Source: Catenisphaera adipataccumulans
Lineage (GTDB): Bacteria > Bacillota_I > Bacilli_A > Erysipelotrichales > Erysipelotrichaceae
Length of the DNA stretch: 64,000 nucleotides
Assembly (NCBI RefSeq): GCF_014202755.1
Contig: NZ_JACHHK010000001.1
Location: forward strand, 124,001-188,000
Direction: 5' to 3'
Shown here: positions 14,000-16,654 of the stretch, piece by piece
Layout: the number at the start of each line of letters is the position of its first letter
Position numbering within the stretch: position 1 is the first letter of the stretch
Notes under the pieces: model-generated
Told to the model about the DNA's origin: nothing
Databases searched by the model: none
Seen by the model: the letters and a program-made list of their open reading frames with translations, nothing else
Made by a program: the position numbers and the translations under genes

Positions 14000-14419
14000 T
14001 TAAAACTGCATGAACTTCCGCCACTGTTTATAACGTTTCAAATCATCCGAAATGGACTTGAATACATAGGCAAAAGCTGCTGCATCATCCACAAAGCCTG
14101 CCGCCGGAATAAAGTCCGGGACCAAATCCAACGGGACCAACGCATAGATCAATACAGCCGTCAGTGCGACAATTGTTTCCTTCGGAATTTCACGATACGT
14201 ACCGTCCGCATAGTCCTGCAGGCAATCAATGCCCAAAATGATCTGATCGGAAATCTTCCGCAAACCAGGTACATTGCCGACTTTATCCATCCAGTCTTTT
14301 ATTTTCTCCAGAAAATTATTCAGTTTTCCTTCTTCGAGAATTTTCTCAGCCGCTGCCCGTTTTTCTGCTAACGATTCCTGCAGCTGTGTTTTGGAAAAAA
14401 ATGTGTTCATACGAGGCAT
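14000..14419 (-). CDS. DUF1232 (YkvA-like) protein
   Basis: A 139-residue protein. The C-terminal part shows the DUF1232 signature: VLIYALVPLDLVPDFIPAAGFVDD, a hydrophobic helix with the PxDxxPD motif. The N-terminal 60 residues are charged and helical. The family is membrane-associated and of unknown function. ATG 14419 follows GGGGAGG. Confidence 0.85.
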   Translation of the reverse strand: MPRMNTFFSKTQLQESLAEKRAAAEKILEEGKLNNFLEKIKDWMDKVGNVPGLRKISDQIILGIDCLQDYADGTYREIPKETIVALTAVLIYALVPLDLVPDFIPAAGFVDDAAAFAYVFKSISDDLKRYKQWRKFMQF

Positions 14420-14581
14420 CCTTGTTTCCTCCCCGTTTCAATAAATCATTGATAAGCTGTTTTGTCAATAAAATCGTAAAAATCGGTGAATCTTTTTGAT
14501 CAGCAGTACGATACACTATACAGTATTGATTGGTCGAAGGATTACTCTTTGCGATTTTACCTGTCATTCATGTTAATATAA

Positions 14582-14597
14582 TGTTGTGAACACAACA
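14582..14597. promoter_or_regulatory. Crp/Fnr operator on its own gene
   Basis: TGTTGT-N4-ACAACA directly follows a TATAAT box (14577-14582), so it covers the predicted transcription start and the GTG used as start codon. The same 16-bp sequence layout occurs at 16604-16619 upstream of the hemerythrin gene. Autorepression is the natural reading. Confidence 0.75.
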
Positions 14598-15296
14598 AAT
14601 ATTCAAAATCATTGGTCCCCTGAAGAGCTGGCCGTCATGCAAAAATCAAAGCTATTTTCTAATATTTCTAAACCGGAACTGATCACTCTGCTGCCTTGCT
14701 TGAATGGTCAAAAAAAGACATATACCAAAGAGGAATATATTTATTGGGCCGGAGATACCATCACGAACGTCGGTCTGCTGCTCTCTGGCCGCGCACACAT
14801 CGAACGATATGATTACTGGGGCAGCCGCCATATTGTTCATGCTTTGCAGCCTGGTGATTTATTTGGTGAAAGCTATGCCGCTTCTGCAGATTCAACGTTA
14901 AATGTCTGTGTACAGGCCGATGAGGATCTGACCGTATTGTTTCTGGAACTGCCGAAGATCCTGCATATGTGCCGCTCAGCCTGTCCGTTCCACGCCCGCT
15001 TGATCGATAATCTGGTCAGCTTGCTGGCAAACCGGAACGTGATGCTGAACGAGAAACTGACCTATATCACCCAGCACTCGCTGCAGGATAAGATCTTGGC
15101 TTATCTTTCCGCTGAATCGATCCGGCAGCACTCGGCGTATTTTGATATTCCATTTGACCGGCAGCAGCTGGCGGATTACTTAAATGCGGACCGCAGTGCA
15201 TTATCCAGTGCATTGTCTAAATTAAAAGCCAAAGGGATCATCGACTTTCAGAAAAATCATTTTCACCTTTTGATCCCGGCACGCCGCGAAAGCTGA
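14586..15296 (+). CDS. Crp/Fnr-family transcription regulator
   Basis: A 236-residue regulator with a cyclic-nucleotide-binding-like beta-roll (about 20-140, with WAGDTITNVGLLLSGRAHI and LQPGDLFGESYA) and a C-terminal Crp-type helix-turn-helix (FDRQQLADYLNADRSALSSALSKLKAKG). Cys residues are scattered (CLNG, CVQA, CRSACPF), but no FNR-type N-terminal Cys cluster is visible; heme or redox sensing is possible. The GTG at 14586 lies inside an operator and has no ribosome site, so translation may start on a leaderless mRNA, or at ATG 14637. The divergent-facing hemerythrin gene downstream has the same operator. Confidence 0.9.
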   Translation: MNTTNIQNHWSPEELAVMQKSKLFSNISKPELITLLPCLNGQKKTYTKEEYIYWAGDTITNVGLLLSGRAHIERYDYWGSRHIVHALQPGDLFGESYAASADSTLNVCVQADEDLTVLFLELPKILHMCRSACPFHARLIDNLVSLLANRNVMLNEKLTYITQHSLQDKILAYLSAESIRQHSAYFDIPFDRQQLADYLNADRSALSSALSKLKAKGIIDFQKNHFHLLIPARRES

Positions 15297-15309
15297 TCGG
15301 TATTCCGCT

Positions 15310-16551
15310 TCACGCGATGTCCGTGATGTCTTCGACAACTTCCAGTACGCCAAGATATTCTTTTTGTTTCGATCGTACGGCCAGATAGCGCACCAGCGTT
15401 TTCCGGCCTTTTTTCGTGGTCACAAAAGAAATTGCATTTTCTTCGCCGGACTTTAGTTTTTGAATGACATTCTGGACGATCGGAATCACTTTCGGCGGGT
15501 GGCACTCATATACCTGGTGTCCCAAAGCCGACACCGCCCGCGGGAACAAGGAAGAGTCTTCTGAAAAATAACGGTTGGTATCGTTGGCATCGATAAAAGT
15601 CAGTTCAACAGGCAGCGTACGCAAAATGCCTTCCAGTTCTGCCAGAGAAAGCGTTCCGCCGGGAAGTTGGATCTCTGCCTGTTCGACAGAACCGTCCGCT
15701 CCTTCGATCGAGATCTGTTTCTTTTCTGGCTTTGCATCCTGCCACTGCGGGATTTCTTTGATCCACGCATAGCCAAAGCGCGGCAGATCTTGATCAATCA
15801 TCTGCCATTCTTCTTCGGTAAAATATTTTTCCGCCAATGGATACAGGATCTTCTCCTCTTTGAAGATCATTTCCTGCATACGTGCACAAAGTCTGCGGAT
15901 ATCATCTTTTACATTCTGCGGCAGCTCCGGCTCGTCTGTTTGTTTTAACTGACGAATCAACGCATTCACAGACTGGCGCAGTTCCCCGTCTACATTCCAC
16001 ATCACATCAGCCGGTCCGGCAACGCCATGACGTTTCAGCGGCGGCAGGATCAATTCATCCTTCTTATCATAATGGACCGCCGCCGCTTTTAGATCGTTAA
16101 GAGAATTCAGGATTTGTTTGGTTTCCGCATTTTGTGTAAGCAGCTTCCGCATTTGATTCAAACGTTTTGTGAATTCTTCGTTTTCCATAGTCAAGATCTG
16201 CAGCGGATGGCCTTGGATTTCTGCGCTTTTGGCCGACGGCATGTCCTGCATTTTGCGTTTTGTTTTTATCGAGGCGGCGACAGATGCCTCTGCCTGCGCA
16301 ATACACTCCTGCCGTGTGTTTCCATGGAAAAGAGCAGAATGCAGATCGCATAATTTCTGCACTTGCGATAAAGGCACACCGTTCTGCATCATTGTTTTTT
16401 CCGCATCCACAATTTCTTTTGCGTCAACGGATCCAAATGTTTCCCGAAAATCATTTTGAACACTTTCCCATGCTTCGCCGTTGTTCAGTCGTTCGATATA
16501 ATTCATGAGCATTTCTGTTCGGTTGATTTCATTTTGATTTGTCTGCATCAT
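15310..16551 (-). CDS. DUF438-hemerythrin-PAS protein
   Basis: A 413-residue protein with three recognisable parts: DUF438 (about 15-80), a hemerythrin HHE-type helical domain (about 120-260, with AAAVHYDKKDELILPPLKRHG and FKEEKILYPLAEKYF) and a C-terminal PAS domain (about 300-410, with FIDANDTNRYFSEDSSLFPRAVSALG). Hemerythrin-like domains bind a di-iron centre and handle oxygen or nitric oxide; the PAS part may bind a ligand. The convergent Crp/Fnr gene and a class II Crp-type operator upstream suggest it is an induced oxygen/NO-response protein. Confidence 0.9.
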   Translation of the reverse strand: MMQTNQNEINRTEMLMNYIERLNNGEAWESVQNDFRETFGSVDAKEIVDAEKTMMQNGVPLSQVQKLCDLHSALFHGNTRQECIAQAEASVAASIKTKRKMQDMPSAKSAEIQGHPLQILTMENEEFTKRLNQMRKLLTQNAETKQILNSLNDLKAAAVHYDKKDELILPPLKRHGVAGPADVMWNVDGELRQSVNALIRQLKQTDEPELPQNVKDDIRRLCARMQEMIFKEEKILYPLAEKYFTEEEWQMIDQDLPRFGYAWIKEIPQWQDAKPEKKQISIEGADGSVEQAEIQLPGGTLSLAELEGILRTLPVELTFIDANDTNRYFSEDSSLFPRAVSALGHQVYECHPPKVIPIVQNVIQKLKSGEENAISFVTTKKGRKTLVRYLAVRSKQKEYLGVLEVVEDITDIA

Positions 16552-16576
16552 ATCCCTGCTTTCTATTTACAGAGAT

Positions 16577-16619
16577 ACTATAAAAGCGATTCGTTGTTTT
16601 GTATGTTGTGCAGACAACA
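16577..16619 (-). promoter_or_regulatory. Crp/Fnr class II promoter of the hemerythrin gene
   Basis: On the minus strand a TATAGT box (16577-16582) predicts a start near 16570. The operator TGTTGT-N4-ACAACA at 16604-16619 is then centred at -41.5, the classical activator position for Crp/Fnr proteins. No good -35 hexamer is present, as expected for an activated promoter. Confidence 0.75.
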
Positions 16620-16620
16620 A

Positions 16621-16654
16621 AAAAGCATCGAAATCAAAGATTCAATGCTTTTTA
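16621..16654 (-). terminator. terminator of the acetyltransferase gene
   Basis: AAAAGCATCGA and TTCAATGCTTTT form an imperfect stem. The minus-strand T run enters the Crp-type operator of the next gene. Confidence 0.65.

Follow-up and report, generated by a model that had tools for sequence, protein, structure and literature searches.

The window analysed here, i.e., the whole 64-kb stretch of DNA, contains a gene for a Crp/Fnr-family regulator and, on the opposite strand, a gene for a protein with DUF438, hemerythrin and PAS domains. The start region of the former and the promoter region of the latter each contain a copy of the same palindrome, and the following features were assigned:

14577–14582, plus strand: putative –10 box (TATAAT) for the regulator gene, touching operator 1; the best hexamer available, with no good –35
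14582–14597, no strand assigned: operator 1, TGTTGTGAACACAACA, in the start region of the regulator gene; predicted autorepression
14586–15296, plus strand: Crp/Fnr-family regulator of the HcpR type, starting at GTG 14586 or ATG 14637; Pfam cNMP_binding and HTH_Crp_2
15310–16551, minus strand: DUF438-hemerythrin-PAS protein of 413 aa; Pfam DUF438, Hemerythrin and PAS_10; predicted activated target
16577–16582, minus strand: –10 box (TATAGT) for the DUF438 gene, with a distance of exactly 21 nt to operator 2; transcription predicted to start (+1) at 16570
16604–16619: operator 2, TGTTGTCTGCACAACA on the minus strand, centred at –41.5 of the DUF438 promoter
16620–16653, minus strand: hairpin resembling a terminator, belonging to the upstream gene and directly adjacent to operator 2

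The initial annotation had placed one 16-bp operator at both genes, and both copies of TGTTGT-N4-ACAACA are indeed perfect and are the only two in the window, where 0.01 exact matches would be expected by chance and where none of 100 shuffles contained two copies. The whole 2.0 Mb genome contains three exact sites, compared with none for the reversed control pattern. The one additional copy (contig 2, position 119923; L033:1501–1516) is located upstream of the gene for a Prismane-family hybrid cluster protein (hcp), so that the regulator, the DUF438 gene and hcp have one site each. What had been described as a pair of genes is instead a three-site HcpR-type regulon that includes hcp. When up to two mismatches were allowed, the motif was not enriched genome-wide (63 sites versus 78 for the reversed control) and showed no excess within the window, which indicates that the signal is carried only by near-perfect sites; the five one-mismatch sites of the genome are all found within long ORFs. 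The lack of enrichment at two mismatches is what could be said for chance palindromes with no regulatory role, but such a reading is hardly credible in view of the 0.01 copies expected in the window, the third copy at hcp and the fixed 21-nt spacing across loci described below, and it is already contradicted by the conservation seen in sequence comparisons.

The centre of operator 2 (16611.5) lies at –41.5 relative to the +1 predicted from TATAGT, as had been proposed. Since the terminator-like hairpin abuts this operator, the DUF438 gene needs a promoter of its own. At hcp, a TATGGT hexamer starts exactly 21 nt past the exact operator, which again corresponds to –41.5 from the predicted start, and in the whole genome the exact composite of operator, 21 nt and TAnnnT is found only at these two genes. 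In class II promoters of the Crp/Fnr type, such as those of E. coli CRP and FNR, the activator is centred at –41.5 and the –35 is poor. On the predicted starts, the same centre and a weak –35 are found here, although the half-site differs.

For comparison of the promoter geometry, orthologues in related genomes and 80 named genomes, mostly of Bacillota, were examined. The choice of the operator at each locus rested on its score, with no selection for spacing; the counts refer to 87 distinct loci, which are related to each other and are not independent trials. On the target strand, TAnnnT is present exactly 21 nt from the operator (i.e., at –41.5) in 82 of the 87 loci and at 19, 20 or 22 nt in none of them, against a background rate of 2.2%. 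The class II distance proposed for the DUF438 gene recurs at hcp as well as across relatives. Secondary TAnnnT peaks at 13, 16 and 18 nt are probably due to the divergent promoters being AT-rich and densely packed. A target-strand –35 of 4/6 or better was found in only four of the 87 loci, which fits a bound protein that stands in for the –35. In 70 of the 87 loci, the regulator strand carries a –10 whose end lies 14 nt ahead of the operator, and 59 of these 70 promoters have a TTG –35 at a 17-bp spacer. This places the operator of the relatives at approximately +8 to +23 of the regulator transcript, with its centre at about +15/16 from the predicted start. The geometry suggested in the initial annotation, one site placed to activate a target and one to repress the regulator itself, is therefore well supported by sequence conservation across the 87 loci.

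In the relatives, the regulator is usually divergent to hcp or to the gene for the two-cluster ferredoxin FrdX, with one operator common to both; a single bound dimer would there switch on the defence gene while shutting off its own. The operator together with divergent hcp and/or frdX was found in 59 of the 80 named loci, i.e., in 59 of the 65 that bear an operator. Two further loci, removed as duplicates, carry it as well; the 15 of the 80 counted as having no recognisable operator beside the regulator include two that were only removed as duplicates. The layout in the present genome is split, the regulator, the DUF438 gene and hcp each having their own copy of the site, and a search of this genome for an frdX orthologue returned only weak ferredoxin-domain matches.

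The regulator is most plausibly a Crp/Fnr protein of the HcpR type that responds to nitrosative stress and has three sites, one at its own gene, one at the DUF438 gene and one at hcp. It has a cNMP-binding-type domain and a Crp HTH (Pfam), an exact operator is present at –41.5 upstream of hcp, and no other protein of the genome matches HTH_Crp_2 above the cut-off. Arg-180, which was linked to the G of the half-site by Rodionov et al. 2005 (PMC1274295), is combined in this protein with a residue other than Glu at position 181, as is characteristic of HcpR. The recognition helix, DRSALS, has Arg at CRP-180 in 108 of 110 aligned relatives and Ser at CRP-181 in 102 of 110, counts to be read with the partial selection of the named relatives on the DRSALS peptide in mind. 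The common HcpR2 motif, GTAAC-N4-GTTAC, is not matched by the site found here. This mismatch does not exclude HcpR membership, as the HcpR2 proteins of C. difficile and C. thermocellum, which have Ser-181, are described as having deviating motifs, the motif itself not being given in the text (PMC1274295). Two other assignments were rejected. FNR does not fit, as the N-terminal Cys cluster is absent and the site is not TTGAT-N4-ATCAA. A cAMP-type CRP does not fit either, as residue 181 is Ser rather than Glu and the half-site is TGTTG rather than that of TGTGA-N6-TCACA.

Compared with the published HcpR/HcpR2 regulon (PMC1274295), the system shares a Crp/Fnr regulator with Ser at CRP-181, hcp as a target and, in the relatives, frdX as a partner; hemerythrin-like genes are also mentioned among the members of that regulon. 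It differs in its site (TGTTG-N6-CAACA instead of GTAAC-N4-GTTAC), in the location of the regulator apart from hcp, and in that no frdX orthologue was found in this genome. This kind of regulator is already known (Rodionov 2005; C. difficile hcpR 2026), and the DUF438 target, the quantified geometry and a co-conserved cysteine triad are what is added here. The triad consists of C21, C112 and C116 (counted from the M at 14637; the Cys of LLPCL plus C-x3-C-x2-H) and is complete in 94 of 110 aligned relatives, wholly absent in 12 and mixed in four. A role in binding a metal or an Fe-S cluster, or as a redox site, is conceivable. Solved-structure relatives of the regulator include Lmo0753 and P. 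gingivalis HcpR (PDB 9DAY). The latter is homologous over nearly the full length and controls hcp in response to NO, but it senses via heme and Met68, and a counterpart of C-x3-C is absent from the alignment (PMC12750200). It is tentatively conceivable, although we would not favour it, that the HcpR branch of Bacillota forms a fixed two-way promoter module in which one dimer switches on a defence gene from –41.5 and acts as a roadblock to its own gene around +15, with NO sensed by a new Cys3 site (C21, C112 and C116, perhaps with H119) instead of heme.

Taken together, the sites, their spacing and conservation, the missing target –35 boxes and the gene partners form the observed basis of a model to which we would give a probability of roughly 80%: an HcpR-type dimer would activate the DUF438 gene and hcp from –41.5 and shut down its own gene. 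The predicted parts of the model are binding, the signal, and whether each site serves activation or repression. The dimer would read TGTTG-N6-CAACA and, upon a nitrosative signal, presumably NO, would bind at –41.5 and so take the position of the absent –35, acting as a class II activator of both targets; bound to operator 1, the same dimer would block transcription of the regulator gene and thereby provide negative feedback. The initial annotation had proposed oxygen or nitric oxide handling. As the regulon includes hcp, the signal is more likely to be NO or nitrosative stress; the presence of hcp and the absence of the FNR cysteine motif both spoke against oxygen as the main signal.

The opposite direction at the targets, i.e., repression of hcp and the DUF438 gene that is released by NO, is modelled for HcpR2 of Desulfovibrio desulfuricans, where an Fe-S cluster damaged by NO is involved (PMC5701242), and the co-conserved cysteine triad of the present regulator would be compatible with it. 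We regard this as improbable, since the exact replacement of the –35 by the operator at –41.5, together with the missing target –35 boxes, is a signature of activation, and since NO induction is lost in a C. difficile hcpR::Tn mutant. In that organism, hcp and frdX increase about 200-fold upon NO exposure in the wild type but not in hcpR::Tn, which indicates that HcpR acts there as an activator; hcpR adjoins frdX-hcp, has a putative site in common with them, and is required for NO induction of hcp (PMC12915319). In the cited part of that report, a DUF438 target is not mentioned and autorepression is not addressed.

The initial annotation had the operator overlapping the start of the regulator transcript; the site does lie in the start region, but its position relative to the start is uncertain here because the start codon is ambiguous, GTG 14586 lying inside operator 1 and ATG 14637 downstream of it. 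In three relatives (L133, L134 and L135), the N-terminal similarity extends upstream of ATG 14637, which makes GTG 14586 possible as the start. If translation starts there, TATAAT cannot be the promoter of the regulator and a transcript start further upstream is needed; autorepression would then stay plausible, while the exact operator distance would not. The consensus promoter scan listed no promoter at this TATAAT, and the arrangement, with TATAAT touching the operator and a good –35 absent, departs from the layout of the relatives.

A DUF1232 gene (14000–14419, minus strand) is divergent from the regulator gene, and a TAAAAT on its strand is found 22 nt from operator 1, one nucleotide off the conserved 21 nt. 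Both this minus-strand hexamer and the deviating promoter of the regulator would suit a variant in which activation of the DUF438 gene and hcp is right but operator 1 does not repress here, being either neutral or serving the DUF1232 gene through TAAAAT. This variant seems to us rather unlikely, as an exact palindrome is retained in the start region of the regulator; service to DUF1232 is further opposed by the absence of TAnnnT at 22 nt from all 87 related loci and by the inspection of divergent genes, in which no DUF1232 partner turned up.

Under the preferred model, with activation of both targets and autorepression, the DUF438-hemerythrin-PAS protein, whose DUF438 domain is without known function, shares its regulator with hcp, which indicates a tie to NO defence in anaerobic Firmicutes. 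The hemerythrin and PAS parts have good Pfam matches, and His, Glu and Asp residues of the hemerythrin region are conserved among the aligned relatives. By inference, the protein would repair or protect iron centres, or bind NO or oxygen. A search of the available literature for DUF438 together with hemerythrin found no paper. A comparable protein is Ddes_1165 of Desulfovibrio, which likewise combines hemerythrin and PAS, is NO-induced and is proposed to be a YtfE equivalent with a role in Fe-S repair; in the cited part of that report, a DUF438 domain is not named and a regulator is not assigned (PMC5701242). In the PAS part of the protein encoded at 15310–16551, the Cys-His pair C350-H351 is shared by all 23 aligned relatives and may be a ligand or active pair.

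The promoter rule, an operator followed by 21 nt and a –10 box, is sharp and testable and could serve to identify HcpR targets in genomes to which the published common motif does not apply. DUF438 operators with the 21-nt spacing are also present in G063, G093 and G028, and in G064 and G069 the spacing is 20 nt, while the gene divergent to the regulator in G035 (L061/L023) is the DUF438 gene. The regulator homologues of G064 and G069 (loci L017 and L019) have neither the cysteine triad nor an adjacent operator, and hcp keeps the exact operator there. In G028, G064 and G069, a short gene separates the operator from the DUF438 gene. Short genes of about 70–90 codons, DUF1858-like by eye and suggestive of a two-gene transcript in the genomes concerned, were seen between the operator and the DUF438 gene in loci L050, L053, L054 and L134.
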